This document shows positions 48,901 to 60,900 of a stretch of 64,000 nt of DNA, in pieces. The position numbers and the translations under genes were made by a program. This DNA is from Juglans regia (Eukaryota > Streptophyta > Magnoliopsida > Fagales > Juglandaceae). The stretch's first letter is position 1. Every line of letters begins with the position of its first letter. The notes beneath the pieces are model-generated. The model saw only the letters and a list, made by a program, of their open reading frames with translations. It did not search any database and was not told the DNA's origin. The DNA is taken from the NCBI RefSeq assembly GCF_001411555.2, contig NC_049901.1:11232681-11296680 (forward strand). Direction: 5' to 3'.

Positions 48901-51900
48901 GAGGAGCCATTTTCCTTTCTTTCTCTTCTTTTAACGACAAACCAAACATAGTGGAAGATGAAGAAAGAAAAAGAATAAAGGTACAAACCTGAAATCCTAA
49001 CAGTTTTCAACCGTTTCTTTTCCTCTGAAATGTGAGCTTGCTTATTCTGGTATAGTTTCCAGCGTCTATCATCTATCAACCCAATTTCACGACCCAAAGG
49101 TGTGAGACGGCTATCAGCATTATCAGATCGAAGTAGCAATCGGTGTTCTGAGCGGCTAAGAGAAACAAAGAAAAACACTTGAATGATAAAATTTTCGTGA
49201 ACAAAAGATAGGAACAGTTCATGTACTAGTTTGCCACCCTCGAAGGCAACTTTCTGCATTTATTGTATCTCCAAAGGCTCTTTTTGTTTTTTTTTCTCTC
49301 TCTAGTTTTTTTTCTCTCTGTACTTATGAGAAAAAATATTGTTTCTGCTAGCCGTTGGTAACTTTCTGCTAATGGTGGAAATATTCAGTGGTGTTTAGCT
49401 TCTGTTTGCCGTTGGTATTTGTCTGCTAATGGTGGAAATAATCAGTGGGGTTTAGTTCTTTCTTTGCTGTTCTTTTTGATTTGTTTGTGCTGTGATGGGG
49501 TTGAGTAGGAATGTTATCATTGATCAAAAGTGTTTTGAGTTCAAGAAGGTTAATGAAAGATGGTGGAGAATCACGGAGAGTAGTTGTCTCATTGTGAAAT
49601 ACATTATCATTGATCAAGAGTCCTTGGGATGGTTGGCTGTCATGGTGAAGGAAGGTATAGCTTCTGTGGGCTCCTCTGTCTTCCTTAGATCGAGAAGATG
49701 CGGGTCTTAGGTCTTGGTGGTGCAAAGACAAAGTAACTCGTATGGGAATTTTTTCTCCTTATCGGAGTTTAGTCAGGAGAAGAGGCGTGGTTTAGTAGTG
49801 ATTCCGGAAGGGAGGATGGGGGTAGGGTGGAGGAATTTTGGTGGTATGTTGAAGGAACTTGCTGATACATCCTCTTTTTAGGAGGGGACTAACAAAGGAA
49901 GTTATCCATGGATGACTTCTCCTTCGTTGCAAGGGCAGGGGCAAGGGCACCTCGTTTCGTACAGGGAGACCTTGTCTCAAGTGCCAAAAACTGCAGAAAG
50001 GACAGTGGTGGTGAAGGCGCAACACTGTAATGGAGATGGCAGACGCATGTCGGGGCTGGAAATGGAAACTTTGCTGCACACTTTGGTTGAAATGGAAAAA
50101 CAAGTGGGTACTTTGCAACTCAACCTGGTTCATGTGAAACAGTGCGTGGAGGAGGGGCTGAAGTGGGAGTTGGGTTTGGGCCAGGAGGAGGGGCCGTATA
50201 CTGCTGATGGGCTACATGGGTATAAGGGGAAGGGTTTGGTCTTAGGTGGGCCTCAACCAAGGGCCTATAAAGCGGTTCAGCGGGTTGGGTTCCAGGCCCA
50301 TGCGAGTTGTGGTATGGGGCAACAGACCCAGGTGTTTCCACAGGCCCAAGCCCAGCAGTTTCCACTGGGTCAGGCCCAGGTGACGTTTCCCGCTCAGAAT
50401 CACAGAGAATTCAATGAGTTTAATCCGTCGTCATCGAATGGGCCGCAACCCTCACCGCCGGTGGTGGCTCATAGGCTGAAGTCGGTGGTAGTGGGTTCGT
50501 TGGCGAGGTTTGGAGTGTCGGAGATCTTGTCTGCAGAGTTGCGGGATTTAGCCTTTAATGACATCGAGAGACCCATTTCTTTGTCGGAGTGTGCACAGAA
50601 GCCAACTTGTGAGCAAGGGTCGACATCGATGGTGGTAGGCTTGCCGGCGAGGTCTGAGGTGTTGGAGAGTGAACCGGCAGCTTCCAGAGAAACAACTTCG
50701 AGCCGACAGAGTGCCGAGAATAACTTGTTGCCGTCGGAGTCTACACAGAAGCCGTCGTGCGTGGTGGTCGGAGGTCCCTCTGACCTTTTTATGCCGTATG
50801 TCACACCAGAGTGTGGGCTTTCGAGCCCAGTGAGGGTTTTGGGGTCTCTGAGAAGCTCTTTACCTCTGGAGAGGGGGGTTTTCGATGGAAACAAGTTGGG
50901 GGATTGCAGTGGAGGTGATTTTGAAATTGGGATGAGGCTTTCTGAAACCTTTGTGGCACCTAGTAGTGAATCTGGTGCAACTTGTGATTCAAGTTCAGAG
51001 CCAAATTTGCAATTGGCACTGTTTGATAATAATAGTGTTGTTGGGGAGGGGGCTGTTGTAACTCCTCTGTGTACATTTCCTCCCAGTTCTAAATATGGGA
51101 GTAGTCCATCAAATTGGATTTTTAAGAAGGTAGAGGAGTTACAAGCTGTTATTAGGATATCTTTTGGTGGTTATGAAGAACAATTCAAGGCCCTTCTTGT
51201 AGCACATGAAGATAGCCATTCGAAGTCAGCCACTAAAAAGGATAAGGAATTTAAAAAGCTAACTTGTTCCATCAATTACGATGTAAAGGAAGGGAGTGGC
51301 GGAAGGGATAGATCAAAAGGGAGGGGCAATCTTTTGCTCAAATGAATCCTAAGATTTTATCTTGGAATGTACGAGAGCTCAATGATCGTAATAAACGCCT
51401 TCGTATCAAACAATTATTGCGGATGTGGAAGGGAGATGTGGTGTGTGTTCAAGAAACAAAGCTGAGATTCATTGATAGGAAAATTGTGCGAAGTTTATGG
51501 GGGTGCTCGTATGTGGGTTGGACCTATTTGGCCTCATTGGGAGCCTCTGGTGGAATGCTCCTTATGTGGGATAAAAGAGTGGTTGAAATGATTGAGGAGT
51601 GTATTGGAGAGTTCTCGGTTGTGACCCGATTTAAAAATGTGGTTGATGGATGGAAATGGGCATTTGCAGGATCCTATGGTCCTAACGTGGATAGGGATAG
51701 GAGAAGGTTGTGGGAGGAGTTGGCAGGTTTATACTCCATATGGGATGTGCCGTGGTGCATGGAGGGTGATTTTAATACTATTCGTTTTCCTAATGAGCGA
51801 TCAAGGCACTGTCGACGTTCTATGGCCATAGAAGAATTCAGCGAGTTCATCTTTGATTTGGACCTCATGGATCTCCATCTAGAAGGGGGCGAGTACACTT

Positions 51901-54900
51901 GATCAAATGGGCAGGTTTGGTCAAGATTGGATAGATTCCTTATATCTCCTTCGTGGGAAGCTAAATATCCGAAAGTAAGTCAGAAACGACTAGCTCGAGT
52001 CAGTTCAGATCATTTTCCTATCATTTTGGATTGTGGGGGTATGCAAAGGGGACGCCGGTATTTCAAATTTGAAAACATGTGGCTTTCAGCGGATGGGTTT
52101 GTAGAGAGGGTGCGTGTTTGGTGGTCTTCATATCAGTTTATTGGTACTCCAAGTTATATTCTGGCAGGCAAGTTGAAGACACTGAAACAAGACTTGAAGA
52201 AGTGGAATTTGGAGGTTTTTGGTCACATTGATGATCAGAAGACTACATTGTTGGAGGAATTGCAAGATTTAGAGGATAGAGAGTTATTGGGAGATAATTC
52301 GGATGAGGTGTTGTTGAGGAATGGCACGATTATGGCAAATTTGGATAGGGTGTTGTTGTCAGAAGAGATCTCATGGCGTAAAAAATCTAGGGCTCTTTGG
52401 TTGAAAGAAGGTGATAGGTGTACAAAATTCTTTCACAAAGTGGCTAACTCTCATCGGCGCAACAATGCTATCGAATCACTTCAATTTGGTTCTCAGGTGA
52501 TATCTTCTCCTCCCGAGCTAGAAAACCATATAGTACAATAGTATGAGACCCTTCTAACAGAATCGGTCCCTTGGAGGCCGAAGCTTGACGCCTTGCATTT
52601 TGAGGCAATTGACTCGCAGAGTGTGAGTGTTCTGGAGAAACCTTTTGACGAAGAAGAGATTTACAAGGTCATATCGGGCATGGCTAAGGATAAAGGGCCG
52701 AGGCCGGATGGTTTTTCGATGGATTTTTTTCAAATTTGCTAGGACATTGTGAAAGGGGACGTTATGCAGGTTTTTAGTGAATTTCACTCTTTTCAAAAGT
52801 TTGAAAAATCACTTAATGCATCCTTTATTGCTCTCATTTCCAAGAAACACGGGGCTGTGACTATTGAAAACTTTCGGCCTATAAGTCTGGTGAGTAGCAT
52901 ATATAAGATTATCTCGAAGGTTCTTGCTAACTGGCTTAGGCCGGCGTTGGAACATGTTATCTCTAAGTCCCAGAATGCTTTTATTCGTGGAAGAAAAATT
53001 CTGGATTCAGTACTCATTGCAAATGAGTGCTTGGATTACAGAATACGGGAGGGAGGTTCAGGTGTTCTGTGCAAGCTTGACATAGAGAAGGCATATGATC
53101 ATGTGAATTGGAAATTTCTTTTATACCTGCTTGAGAGATGTGGTTTTGGGGATCGGTAGATTGCATGGATGTGTCATTGTATTTCAACTGTCTAGTTCTC
53201 AATTTTGGTTAATGGCACACCTGCTGGTTATTTTGATAGTTCGTGGGGATTGCGGCAAGGAGATCCTTTATCTCCTCTTCTATTTGTTATAGTTTTTTTT
53301 TTATAAGTAAAAATATTGTATATATCAAAAGGAGAAACCAAGTACACTGAATGTATACAAGAAAACACATTGCCCAAAATAACCCAACAAGCCCCTAATG
53401 ACCTAAAAAGCCCATAAAAAAACCAATCCAAAGTACATCAGACCCGACCCCAATCCTTGTTTCCCATAGAACTAAAACTCTACCCGAACACCAACCCCAA
53501 CACCTGGATTCCCGTCTTCACAATATCCTCCCTTTAGACTTCCCTCTAATTGAACTACCACCCTTAGCGTCATAGTTGATTGTCGAAAAGAGACACTGTA
53601 ACTCCCTGCTTTTCTTGAAGCTTGATTTGGTTTCAAGTGTGCAGCTTGCCTCGATTGCAGTAATTAGTTCGTTAAATTGGTCTTCACATCCTCTATGTGA
53701 AATTCCCACGAATTGTTGAATCTCGTTAACTTTAGGCAGAATCCAATCCGCTATTGGAGGAAGAGAGACCAGGGGAGCCACAATATCCCCATTAACCTGT
53801 ACTCCTGACTCTAGACATTCTTCTACACAAGGCACCAACGCCAAACCCATTGGTTCTCTAGTAACTCCATTGGTTCTCTCCAATGGTATTGGGGTCCCCA
53901 TTGAAGATTCTGGGGTGACAACAAGTCCTTTTACCTCTGGGATGATAGCGGATCCTACATCTCCTTCAGACCTTGGCAGTACACCTTTTTCCTTTAACTC
54001 TAACGAGAGAGCCATAGTTTCTTCAGGGACCAAGGGTGTAATACCAACTATCGATCTATCATGTGTTACACGAGGCGAATGACATTCCATTACTGATGCC
54101 TCTACGCTAATACCCGATGTAGACCCCACTTCAAATAACCCAGATTTCCTTTTGACCTGCCATACTCTCCTGGATCTGGTTATAGGGACAGAGCCGAATC
54201 CAATCTTCCGTTTTCCTTTTTCTAAGTTTAAAGGATTCAGGCCTATCATGTTTCTTACCACCCTGTTGCCTCTAGCTGAAAGCCGATCTATTTTCATAGA
54301 CAAGAAAGTTATCGCTGTCTTCAACTCGACAAGTTGGGTTTCCATCTCCTTTAGAGAATTGTGCATCTCGACAAGCTAGTCTTGAGATGTGATTGGCAGA
54401 CCCTCCACACTCTGAACCCCTGAAGCATGTCCCGTCTTTAGAGCTGCCGCATAAGATTGCCTCACCACCGAGGATGTACTTGGGTCTTTCTCCAAGTTCT
54501 CCCTCCCTACCACACCACCTTGTCCTTCCAAGCCGTCACTCCCTCTCTTACCGAAGGAAAAATGACGCAGCACCTCCCCCATCCTTCTCCAACCACTACC
54601 CCCCTCTTCAGGAATGAAAATAAAATTCCTCCTCCTCCCACCACCATACTCCTCCACCGCCATATAACGTCCACGAGCATTTGAGTAGCGATGCGTTGTG
54701 AAACTACGTCGACCTTCCCGGACAGTGGAGAAAAAATCTTGTTTCTTATCCTTAGTACACGCTTCAATGGCCTTGGCCAGCCACTGCACTATTGTCGAAC
54801 CCAGAACCAACTTAGATATCACCCTTCGACTCCTTTCAGTAATGGCCAACATGCTCCCCTCCTTTACCAGTGTAAAGGATTTAGATTCTATGGCCAACTC

Positions 54901-57900
54901 CATAGAAGAACCCATACTGACCCACTCCCCTTCTTCAACAACCATTCATCATCTCAGATAAATCAGATCAGAAATCCGTTGGGAGCTGCAAGCACTGCGA
55001 AGTTGTGGACTCCAGGTCGTGCTCACTGCAAGCACTGCAGAGTTGTTTCCAGCTGCAAATCGTAAAACTCTCTCGGACGTAAAACTCTCTCAGACGGTGC
55101 AGGCTGCTGTTGGGGGAGGGTTCTTATCGGGTTTTTAGGTGGGCAATGTTGCTGGTGGCCTTATTAACATTTCACACATTCTTTTTGCAGATGATACGTT
55201 AGTTTTTTGTGAAGCAAATAGGAGTCAGATCCAAACTTTACAAGCATTGTGAATCTGCTTTGAAGTAGTGTCAGGATTAAAGGTGAATCTGGGCAAGTCT
55301 GAGATAGTTCCTGTGGGGATGGTCTCTAATATTCTCAATTTAGCAAGACTTTTGGATTGTAAGGTGTCCTCTTTCCCTATGAAATATCTGGGCCTTCCGC
55401 TGGAAGCAACCTTCAAGAATATAGCTATTTGAGATGGGGTAGTGTAGAAGATAGAGAAAAGGTTGGCTGGTTGAAAACAGATGTATCTATCAAAAGGGAG
55501 CCATCTCACTCTTATCAAGAGTACTCTCACTAACCTCCCCACTTATTTTTTATCTTTGTTTCCTATGCCTGTAGGGGTGGTGAACAAAATGGAGAAACTC
55601 TTTAAGGCGTTCTTATGAGGAGGTATGGAGGAGGAGAAGAAATTTCATTTGGTCAGATGGAAGACTGTATGTGCCTCAGTTGTGAACGGGGGGTTGGGAG
55701 TGTGTAACTTGAGAACTTTTAATAAAGTATTATTGGGAAAATGGCTTTGGAGATATCATTTGGAGGGAGGTTCATTGTGAAAGGATATTATTATTTTTTT
55801 TTAAGTAAAATAAATATTATTAATCCAAGAATGGGCAACAACTGCCAATTACAAAGTAAATATGTCCTATATACGTAGGCACATTAGAAACTAAGAAATC
55901 ATGAAGGTCCATGCCATTAAAGTCCACATCAATGGCCCAAGTACAAAGCGTTCTGAAAAAGAATACTTTTAACTCCTCCATAGATCTCTCTTTGTCTTCA
56001 AACGTCCTCTCATTACTCTCCTGCCACAAGCACCACATAATACAAATAGGGATCATTTTCCAAATCACTTTGATCTGATACACATCTCGAATAGAGGTCC
56101 AACACGCCAACATATCCACTACGGCTTCTGGCATAACCCTGTTAGTTCCAACCTTTTAAACACCTCATTCCAAAGAGTCCTGGCTACATCACAATGTATA
56201 AGTAAATAGTTCACCGACTCACCTCCTCTTTTACACATACAACACCAGTCTGCAATGATTATCTTCATCTTTCTCACATTATCTGTAGTAAGAATCTTGC
56301 CTAATGACGCTGTCCACACAAAGAAAGAAACTTTAGGAGGAGCCTTGTGTCGCCAGATCCTTCTCCAGGGAAACTGTATCTCCGACACTTGTGTGAGGAC
56401 CTTATAAAAGGACCTAACAGTGAATACCCCTCTCCCTGCAAGAATCCACCATAGGCCATCTTCATGCTGGATACTTGGACGACACGAATACAAGAGACTA
56501 TAAAAATCTGCAAAACTCTCCATCTCCCAATCCTGTGCCGCCCGGTTAAAGTTGATATTCCAGTGAATACCCCCTTTTGAGTTTCCATAACTTCCGCCAT
56601 TATGACATCTTTGGCACTTGCTATCAGGAAAAGTAAAGGAAACAAATCTTGGAGAGCACTATTGCCACACTAAACATCATTTCAAAATCTAATCCTTGAG
56701 CCTGTACCCAACTGGAACCTAGTATATTGATGAAAGACCTCCCACCCTTTTCTAATATGTTTCCATAGCCCCATTCCATGTGCCCTCTAACTTCTCTAGT
56801 GCACCAACCCTCCCCTAAACCACCATATTTATTCTCAATCACAATTTTCCATAAGGCTCCTGGTTCCTTGATATATCGCCACAACCATTTGCCATGGAGC
56901 GCCCGATTAAACAACCTTAAGTTTCTAATACCCAAGCCACCACTCGAGATAGGACGGCACACCATCTCTCACCTGACAAGATAAAATTTAAACTCTTCTC
57001 CTAAGCCACCTCATAGAAAATCTCTTTGTAGCTTCTCAAGACGACCCGCCACGCTTGCCGGTATAGGGAATAATGATAAGAAATAGGTGAGTAGATTAGA
57101 AAGTGTACTTTTAATCAATGTAATCCGGCCCCCTTTCGACAAGTACATTCTCTTCCACCCTGCTAGTCTCCTCTCTACTTTTTCAATTACTGTATCCCAG
57201 ATCGAACATGCCCTCGAAGCTATACCCAATGGTAATCCCAGGTAAGTCATCGGAAGAGACACTATCTTGCAACCCAATGTGTCCGCCAATTCCCTAATAT
57301 TCTGAACCTCTCCAATCGGTACCAACTCGGATTTATCATAGTTCACTTTTAAACCAGACACTACTTCAAAACAAAGCAAACATGCCTTCACCGCCCGCAA
57401 CTGGTCTCGATCAGCTTCGCACATAATAAGCATGTCATATGCAAACAGCAAGTGAGAAATAGAGATAAAACCCCTGCTCGAAGATCCAATCTGGAAACCA
57501 CTAACAAACCCATTAGCCAACAACGCCGCAATCATCTTGCTTAGTGCTTCCATAACAATAACAAAAAGTAATGGAGACAACGGATCCCCTTATCTCAAAC
57601 CACGAGAGCTCTGGAAAAAACCCTCGGGGCTGCCATTGATCAACACCGAGAACCTTACCGTAGATATACACCATCTAATCCAAGACCTCCACCTTTCACC
57701 AAAACCACACCTACCCAGTAGATATAGAAGGAAATCCCAATTTACATGGTCATATGCCTTCTCTATATCCAACTTACACATAATTCCTGGGTTGCCAGCC
57801 TTCAATCTACTGTCTAAGCATTCATTGGCAATTAGAACCACATCAAGGATTTGTCTACCCTTAACAAAAGCATTTTGAGGCTTAATCACAATCTTCCCCA

Positions 57901-60900
57901 ACACCTCACTTAAGCGATTCGCAAGCACTTTCGAAATAATCTTGTAAACTCCATTCACTAATCTAATAGGCTGAAAATCTGTGATCTCAATAGCCCCAGC
58001 CTTCTTCGGTATTAAAGCAAGGAAAGTGTGGAAGGATATTATTGACACTAGATATGGTGTCGATTCGGATGGTTGGTGTTCTAAAGAAGTGAGAGGGGGT
58101 ATGGTGTGGGTTTATGGAAGTATATAAGGAATGGATGGCCATGTTTTACAAATCAAATTCGCTTTGTGGCGAGAGAATTCATATCAGATTTTGGAGGGAT
58201 GTGTGGTGTGGAGACCACGCTTTGGAAAGGGCTTTTCCGACCTTATACCGTATTGCAGTGAATAGGGAGGCTTCAGTGGCGGACGTGCGTTTATTTTCTC
58301 ATGGTGCTCACCAGTGGAATATTCTTTTTAATAGGGATTTGCATGATTGAGAATTACCTATTGTTTCAAAATTTTACAACGTACTATATTCCACGGAGTT
58401 TTCTATGGCACAGGAAGATAGTTTGAAGTGGAGGTCTAATAACTACAAGATATGTACAGTTAAGGCGTATTATGGCATCTTGACAATGCAATTTGATATT
58501 ACGCCGTTCCCCTGGAAGAGTATTTAGAGGTCTCGTGTGCCTTCAAAAGTAGTTTTTTTTGTTTAGAGTGCTGCTCTAGGGAAAATATTGACTACGGACA
58601 ATTTGAGAAAGAGAGGATGTGTACTGTTGGATTGGTGCTACATGTGCAAGAAGAATGGAGAATCTGTGGACCATCTCTTATTACACTGTAAGGTAACAAG
58701 GGTGTTGTGGGATGAGATCTTTCTAAGGGTTGATGTTCATTGGGTTATGCCTATGAGGGTGGTGGATTTGTTGGGTTGTTGGTCAAAGATACAAGGCAGC
58801 CATCAAATGGCAGTAGTGTGGAAAATGATTTCGTTGTGTATTATGTGGTGCACTTGGACGGAAAGGAATGTGCGTTGCTTTGAAGATAAGGAATGTACAT
58901 TGCCCGAGCTGAAGAATTTTTTTCTCCACACTCTAATGTGTCGGTTTTCCACTATTGTTTTACATGGGGATAGTGTTTAGGATTTCTTGTCTTTAATTTA
59001 TCATTCTTAGAATGTAATTAAGAGTTCTTATGTATACTTCCCGTGTACCAAGGCTATGCCTAATTCATTCATATATATAATATCTATCTTTTATTGATCA
59101 AATAAAAAAAAAAAAGTTTGCCACCCTCAAATTAAGTAATTTGTCATGCACACGCAAGGTCAGCATGCTCTGAGAAAGCATTCTACTTATGTTTCTGTCA
59201 AGTGACATTCTAGCATCTTACTTCTGAACCCTCGCATTCAGACATTCTAGCTAAGGCAATTTCTGGCCTCCGTACAATCTTTTGCGCAAATTTCATAAAA
59301 TGGCCCATAACATGACTGGTGCATAACACAAAATGTCAAATATGGAACATTAGTTAGGATACTAAATCTCACTTTTGTTTACCAATCAAAATAAATAAAT
59401 AAATAAATGTCATTTTCCTGGACATGCAAGGACTTGCATTTACATGGTAGTGCGATATGGATAAATATACCACAAACGGAATAACCTACGACCTAACCCT
59501 CCATGCCTTACAAGGGGGAGGAGACATCACGTGGTCTGAAAATATTGGCCTGAAACTTGATGGAAATGTCATTTTAAAAGCATAAAAAGACACCAATTAT
59601 TTGACTCAAGATGTTGGAAATGTAGTGCATATAAGACACGGAAGTGTAGTGCTTAACATAAATGATTTATTTATTTTTATTAAAATCTAGTATTCTACTC
59701 AAATATTAGCAATTATCACCATAAAAATAGTTCCCAAGGGCAATAAATAAATAAATAACCATAGAAAATTATTGTAACAATATTTTGAGGTCATTACCTT
59801 GTCAACATTCGGTAAGGCTCTCGAAGATCCTTAGTGACCAGATCATCAATCAGTGTCCCTATATAACTGCTCTCCCTCTCAAGAACAATAAGAGGCTTAC
59901 CATCTGCATGTCTAGCAGCATTGATACCAGAAATGATGCCCTAAGGAAAGGAGAAAGGAGTAAATAATTCCAAAGAAGGTTTGTTACATATAGAAAATAC
60001 CATACTGCCAAGAAGCATAGAATTCTTTCTCTACCAAGGCAAGAGTACAAAGATAAACCAATAACTCCACCAGTAATGTTTTCCATAATAGTCCAGGACA
60101 AAAAATGTTACAAAGATAATTACCTGCGCTGCAGCCTCTTCATAGCCTGTGGTTCCATTTATCTGACCGGAGAAGAAAAGTCCACTAATTTTCTTCGTCA
60201 TAAGTGACCTAGAGCATTGATGAGCAGGCAAAAAATCATATTCTACGGCGTAAGCAGGCCTCAGCATTGAACAATTTTCAAGTCCGGGCAAAGTTCTTAA
60301 GAGTGGTAACTGTAGTCTCTCTGGTAAACCAGTTGAGAAACCCTGTAAAGGAAAAAAAAAAACCAGTTACAGGAAAATTGTTGAATATATGCCTCTATAT
60401 TAGAACAAATATGATAAAGAGTTCTAAGAGTAATCTGTTCAAGACTCATGCCACAAAATAATTTGACTACATTAGAAATAGTTGAGTTCAACTGTCAAAC
60501 GGAAGCTAATGCAACTAGATGAATTTGGTCAATGCCAGCAGAAAACATAATGATAATCAAATCCCATAGATAAAAAGAAAGGCTACCAGAATAGAGGATA
60601 AGAGTACCTCCTTGCATGCTTTTTATTTTTTATTTATTTTTTACATGTAACAAGTCTAATTAGAAAAGCACAATAAGGGGCAGCCCTGGGACATGGGATG
60701 CAAACAAGAAAAACACCCAGAAGGTCAAAGAACTCCAATAAATTCAAAAAAATAAAATGTTGTAGCTTCCATCCAATTATATAGAAAATCTTGAGCACAA
60801 AAGCTTCAACCCCATTGTCAATGATTGACATTCCTAAAAAGTGTGCATTTCTTTCTCAACAATGACATCACATTAAACAATATGGAATCAACTTCCAAAT

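Follow-up and report, generated by a model that had tools for sequence, protein, structure and literature searches.

The original paper on HAL1, a mobile element of mammals, is reportedly that of Bao and Jurka from 2010. HAL1 belongs to the long interspersed nuclear elements (LINEs) and carries only the first of their two open reading frames (ORF1); passages of two papers describe it as poly(A)-tailed and flanked by target-site duplications (TSDs), with an ORF1 kept for approximately 29–44 million years in guinea pig (PMC3627910, PMC5322556). The LINEs of flowering plants are almost exclusively of the L1 clade, and almost all have a poly(A) end, as stated in part of PMC3747384. Among the non-autonomous class I elements of plants, passages of a transposable element review name LARD, TRIM, SMART and short interspersed nuclear elements (SINEs) (PMC9033089). 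The EKA family of powdery mildew, as described in the abstract of PMC4641428, comprises very many copies derived from a LINE ORF1, with effectors co-opted from truncated LINE copies. No plant ORF1-only LINE family was found among the papers listed by literature searches, which covered open-licence papers; such a family may have been described elsewhere or may stand without a name in a repeat database. The present analysis concerns an ORF1-only LINE in walnut, Juglans regia, located in a 64,000-nucleotide stretch of contig NC_049901.1 (positions 11,232,681 to 11,296,680, forward strand), hereafter the window.

The element in the window is very probably a dead member of an old and recently active LINE family that is non-autonomous and has only the ORF1 protein (ORF1p) as its product, with a probability of roughly 0.85. 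The copy occupies 53293–55092 on the minus strand and reads from 55092 to 53293, both strands having been read. An earlier note, made from the letters of this DNA, had described an ORF1-only element at 53293–55085, nested in an outer L1. The end at 53293 was retained, and the other end was moved to 55092. The remaining structural claims agree with the sequence: an ORF1 of approximately 475 codons interrupted by one stop, a 3′ untranslated region (UTR) and poly(A) are present (Table 1), 225 nt separate the ORF1 stop from the end of the A-run, and ORF2 is absent from 53293–55092. The nesting was also confirmed, the insertion site lying within the reverse transcriptase (RT) part of the ORF2 of a plus-strand L1 that has its own 14-bp TSD.

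The leader proposed for this copy held only in part. A partial 5′UTR is present, but the first ~32 nt of the supposed leader are the 5′ tip of the family in inverted orientation, and ~350–400 nt of 5′UTR next to this tip are gone. When the tip was compared with those of eight hand-picked family copies, the reverse complement scored 13.0–30.0 and the forward orientation 5.0–7.0 in all eight. No TSD was found at the insertion flanks, and 19–24 bp of the outer ORF2 are absent at the site when three related L1s are taken as reference. The window copy is a fossil: rearranged, broken, with one stop codon and no TSD. In general, twin priming during target-primed reverse transcription leaves a 5′ inversion and a junction deletion. 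Because the inversion and deletion seen here match this known trace of LINE insertion, the copy probably arose by target-primed reverse transcription with twin priming and a small target deletion. Neither of the two pieces of the window ORF1 matched a Pfam domain. A structure prediction for its first 189 residues gave a mean pLDDT (predicted local distance difference test score) of 45, and the result was not used.

The window copy belongs to a multi-copy family, referred to here as group A. A DNA search of the walnut genome, in which 40 of 1067 first-look candidates received a score, listed at least 46 matches. Sequences were fetched for the 30 best places, one of which is the window copy. A single alignment runs across the ORF1 stop into the 3′UTR in all 30, so the junction is kept at all 29 other places. 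The search for such copies had been proposed in the earlier note as the way to establish a family. Across two overlapping sets comprising 60 fetched loci, the junction is aligned in 55. The exceptions are L036 and L055, which start after the ORF1 stop, L051 and L059, which start at most ~25 nt before it, and L053, which has an internal deletion. Nine of the 60 loci, representing seven places, have endonuclease matches, all of them placed by their coordinates outside the element, in flanking L1s; inside the element, no endonuclease match was obtained in any of the 30 best group A copies.

An A-run of at least 6 is found in 29 of the 30 best copies, and an exact flanking repeat of at least 10 bp in 17; when the 3′ flank was reversed as a control, 3 of 30 had one. 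One copy counted among the 17, L007, has an A-rich repeat that may be due to chance. Many copies have extra nucleotides, varying from copy to copy, between the flank repeat and the shared 5′ tip. The distance from flank repeat to A-run is mostly 2.1–2.3 kb, with outliers at 2.4 kb (a copy with an internal duplication) and 1.6 kb (a 5′-truncated copy). Full-length copies have in common a further ~350–400 nt of 5′UTR upstream of the part retained in the window, and the tip carries CTCTCTCGGACGTAAAA-like units, tandem in some copies. The family unit is composed of a 5′UTR of ~500–550 nt (obtained by subtraction), an ORF1 of 458–475 codons, a 3′UTR of ~225 nt and poly(A). This ORF1-only unit has been copied many times as a whole, often with TSDs. 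The protein relatives of its ORF1 come from Juglans in 16 of 18 cases, the other two having no source name, and in 6 of 6 cases in a second search. No homologue was confirmed in prokaryote genomes and viral contigs, and plasmids gave no match. The fetched loci L025, L044 and L051 have likewise inserted within L1 sequence or next to it.

Recent activity is indicated by clusters of nearly identical copies. L069, L070 and L071 lie at three places, C7:7.14 Mb, C3:7.25 Mb and C5:18.21 Mb taken together, with different flanks; they are 99.8–99.95% identical over ~2.05 kb, and in each of them a 458-codon ORF1 is open. Their flanks contain exact repeats of 12, 14 and 13 bp, located ~60, 11 and 130 nt upstream of the shared start and with no control behind them. 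A second cluster (L018, L020, L021, L022) is 99.3–99.8% identical; three of its members have an open ORF1 of 474 codons and L022 has a stop. In total, seven of the 33 whole group A copies have an open ORF1 of at least 458 codons: the trio, L018, L020, L021 and the 5′-truncated L017, whose 465 codons are counted from a later start. The very young copy L071 (G000:C5:18213950-18216330) is directly followed by the start of the ORF2 of another L1, and ATGAAGCCTAAAA, located at that ORF2 start, recurs ~130 nt upstream of the L071 element.

Comparison of the open reading frames also provides information on selection. L017 and L018 differ by 26 synonymous and 21 nonsynonymous changes, corresponding to a nonsynonymous divergence (dN) of 0.020, a synonymous divergence (dS) of 0.084 and a ratio (omega) of 0.24; binomial p values are 3e-6, 2e-5 and 1e-4 at transition weights of 1, 2 and 4. 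With the five remaining intact copies, L017 gives omega values of 0.25–0.28. By codon position, the differences between L017 and L018 number 14/8/25; five degenerate copies, used as a neutral control, gave 358/242/247 when their ten pairs were added up. Across the 435 pairs that the 30 copies form, omega has a median of 0.52, a value to be expected from a mixture of a selected lineage and dead copies. These substitution patterns indicate that ORF1 is under purifying selection between lineages with open ORF1s, and that selection is weak or invisible within the youngest clusters. The dN/dS comparison suggested in the earlier note is therefore informative between intact lineages and gives no clear signal within the youngest clusters.

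Two more diverged groups of ORF1 were sampled. The group B query, P0006, is 68% identical to the C-terminal piece of the window ORF1, and the sample consists of the top 8 of 146 listed matches. In all eight stretches the ORF1 stop runs into a related 3′UTR, no downstream stretch has an ORF2 endonuclease match (0/8), and an A-run is present in six. The group C query, P0012, covers 40% of the window piece at 57% identity. Here, 15 of 202 listed matches were taken; a related 3′UTR is reached from ORF1 in all of them, none of the 15 downstream stretches gives an ORF2 endonuclease match, and 12 have an A-run. As a positive control, the same endonuclease query was applied to 12 of 150 listed matches with the ORF1 type of the outer L1, chosen mostly for long open frames, and it matched in 12/12, with ORF2 directly following. 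The ORF1-only state is therefore common to at least three diverged groups and is found in every copy examined. The copies examined belong to groups A, B and C; P0010 and P0011 represent a further, intermediate kind of ORF1. No ORF1–ORF2 fusion was found in gene models, a search that relied on a long placeholder and carries little weight. A group C-like match at G000:C15116:509563-511832 is positioned tail to tail with a group A copy on the opposite strand, ~72 bp away. Two further group C-like matches, at G000:C3:24486029 and C3:24500704, have the same scores and query coordinates and lie ~14.7 kb apart, which suggests local duplication.

The same groups bear on the possibility that complete L1s repeatedly give rise to ORF1-only copies, through internal deletion or RNA splicing, and that these copies then amplify briefly. 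Spliced copies of human L1 (SpIREs) are known, though they are of another kind, formed by splicing in the 5′UTR or between 5′UTR and ORF1, as described in part of PMC5860796. However, in groups A, B and C alike the 3′UTR can be aligned and joins ORF1 directly at its stop, and an ORF2 match is absent from all 23 group B and C stretches. In a tree of the ORF1 C-terminal region, the window ORF1 and ten Juglans proteins (whose own loci were not each checked for ORF2) are separated from 13 of 13 ORF2-bearing ORF1s with a local support of 1.000; homologous ORF1s with ORF2 attached thus appear as a separate group. The synonymous divergence between L018 and two group B copies is 0.68 and 0.95 (omega 0.44 and 0.38), and by this measure, which includes neutral decay of the B copies, the split between A and B is deep. 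Repeated origin is consequently considered unlikely.

The relationship to autonomous walnut L1s can be followed at both ends of the element. In the C-terminal region, the family ORF1 is 42% identical over 95 residues to that of the outer L1, and in the N-terminal region it is 33% identical over 120 residues to an autonomous ORF1 (E 7e-16). Derivation of the window element from the outer L1 was rejected, the C-terminal identity being only 42%. Consequently, where the earlier note had proposed selection on, or recent origin of, ORF1-only copies, selection between intact lineages stands and a recent derivation from the outer L1 does not. In six of seven 3′ stretches of ORF2-bearing L1s, the motif TGTATAC(T/G)(T/C)CC(T/G)GTGTAC is found 51–52 nt before the A-run; the motif is absent from the seventh, L103, whose 3′ end seems to be missing. 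ORF1-only copies carry a similar motif, TGTATACGTCCAGTGTAC or near it, at a similar place. Behind the motif, autonomous and ORF1-only tails align with a mean score of 15.7, as opposed to at most 10.2 in 100 shuffles. This comparison involved six autonomous tails (two of them near-identical) and nine of 16 ORF1-only tails, seven having been dropped because the motif search missed them, and the control consisted of single-base shuffles of AT-rich tails, so the tail likeness is supporting evidence only. Judged by an ORF1 homologous to that of L1, an L1-type 3′ end and poly(A), the family is a plant L1-clade LINE. It is not an autonomous L1, as the copies examined have no ORF2 with endonuclease and RT.

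Since ORF2 is missing and the copies have TSDs, poly(A) and a similar tail, the family is presumably mobilised in trans by L1 ORF2. In such a mechanism, the RNA of the ORF1-only element would be made from a promoter in its own 5′UTR, and ORF1p would bind in cis the RNA that encodes it. For target-primed reverse transcription, the ORF2 protein (ORF2p) of walnut L1s would act in trans as the source of endonuclease and reverse transcriptase, and the similar 3′ tail may help ORF2p to use the ORF1-only RNA. A wider reading is favoured, with appreciably less assurance than the reading of the window copy itself: walnut may harbour an ancient, self-renewing ORF1-only superfamily, whose three or more groups would have one origin, would have kept a working ORF1 for very long without ORF2, and would be still, or until very recently, mobile. 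In this superfamily ORF1p would act strictly in cis and ORF2p would be shared in trans, the two halves being inherited separately as a two-component system. As far as literature searches tell, it would be the first in plants.

It is also conceivable that a domesticated ORF1 gene gave rise to the copies as processed pseudogenes, in which case selection would act on a host gene and not on the element. L1TD1 is a domesticated ORF1 gene in mammals, and the conservation of ORF1 in a family in which most fetched copies are dead would fit such an origin. However, the tail motif of the copies resembles that of walnut L1s, their shared 5′UTR has tandem units near the 5′ end, and the several open loci, with different flanks and in several subfamilies, look like multiple source elements. 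On these features of the copies, domestication is judged a little less likely still than repeated origin. A unique or chance structure formed by internal deletion of one full-length L1, which the window copy alone, without a TSD, would allow, is refuted by the 29 copies elsewhere that carry the same junction, and the outcomes that the earlier note had named as fatal to its proposal, a unique copy or a single internal deletion, are thereby excluded.

Several observations weigh against an old, recently active family under selection. Most whole group A copies (26/33) have no open ORF1 of at least 458 codons, and 13 of the 30 best copies have no exact TSD of at least 10 bp. A clear A-run is missing in two of eight group B stretches (L067, L068) and in three of 15 group C stretches (L076, L077, L081). 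Between the tail of the window copy and that of the outer L1 taken by itself, no significant similarity was obtained, as 110 of 1000 shuffles did equally well. Within the youngest clusters, selection is hardly visible: the young cluster has 6 synonymous and 5 nonsynonymous or stop changes among its variable codons (p 0.03–0.06), and the ORF1 differences within the trio L069–L071 (1, 2 and 3 per pair) are all nonsynonymous, with 3 versus 0 synonymous between L069 and L071. Finally, the absence of ORF2 rests on the 23 group B and C stretches and the fetched group A copies, and is not genome-wide.

The features of the window copy and its surroundings, including a second element nested in the outer L1 and an ORF1 fragment outside it, are collected in Table 1.

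Table 1. Features of the ORF1-only copy and neighbouring elements (window coordinates).
Feature	Position	Strand	Basis
ORF1-only LINE, whole insertion	53293..55092	-	flanks aligned to three related L1s and family alignment
Poly(A), reads T on the plus strand	53293..53302	-	sequence
3′UTR, tail motif TTGTATACATTCAGTGTAC	53303..53517	-	sequence and family comparison
ORF1, 475 codons and TGA, one in-frame TAG at 54375-54373	53518..54945	-	frame reading, protein match
5′UTR, retained 3′ part	54946..55063	-	family copies align from here on
Inverted 5′ tip of element, tandem CTCTCTCGGACGTAAAA-like units	55061..55092	+	reverse-complement alignment to family 5′ tips
Outer ORF2-bearing L1, includes both nested insertions	49242..59114	+	14-bp TSD; ORF1, endonuclease and RT matches
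5′ TSD of outer L1, 14 bp AGTTTGCCACCCTC, second copy at 59115-59128	49228..49241		flank repeat
Outer L1 ORF1, main open part	49912..51345	+	open reading frame
Outer ORF2 start, endonuclease domain	51342..51902	+	PF03372, E 8.8e-8
Second nested element, 5′-truncated ORF2-bearing L1, 12-bp TSD AAGGATATTATT	55793..58031	-	frames, domain matches, flank repeat
Fragment of ORF1-only-type ORF1, 71% amino acid identity, outside outer L1	46913..47077	+	tblastn

Among the closest known systems are the autonomous walnut L1s (the outer element and 12 relatives). They resemble the family in homologous N- and C-terminal ORF1 domains, a similar tail motif and poly(A), and differ in that ORF2 directly follows ORF1 (12/12 sampled). 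Plant SINEs, LARD and TRIM are likewise non-autonomous, and the review passages that treat them name no protein-coding non-autonomous LINE (PMC9033089). The EKA family shares derivation from a LINE ORF1 and a high copy number; it differs in being described as fungal effectors and not as a mobile ORF1-only element (PMC4641428). One practical implication is that some walnut genes annotated as ‘hypothetical proteins’ or ‘uncharacterized proteins’ are parts of a mobile element.

The comparison with mammalian HAL1, already drawn in the earlier note, proved apt: as in the HAL1 passages, the walnut family is ORF1-only, has poly(A), TSDs, many copies and a long-kept coding ORF1, and needs ORF2 in trans, a step that for walnut is inferred (PMC5322556, PMC3627910). 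The differences are that the walnut family is a plant L1 lineage with its own ORF1 type and separate ancestry, and that a single genome contains at least three diverged groups, none of whose examined copies has ORF2. Selection on ORF1 in such an element suggests that ORF1p is needed by its own RNA even when ORF2p is foreign, so the cis and trans requirements of LINE movement are separated. Placed by its Juglans relatives and walnut L1 homology, with no direct comparison with mammalian L1, the family is HAL1-like in functional type and not HAL1 by descent. The accounts of HAL1 found are all mammalian, and a second independent origin, in plants, would generalise the rule.

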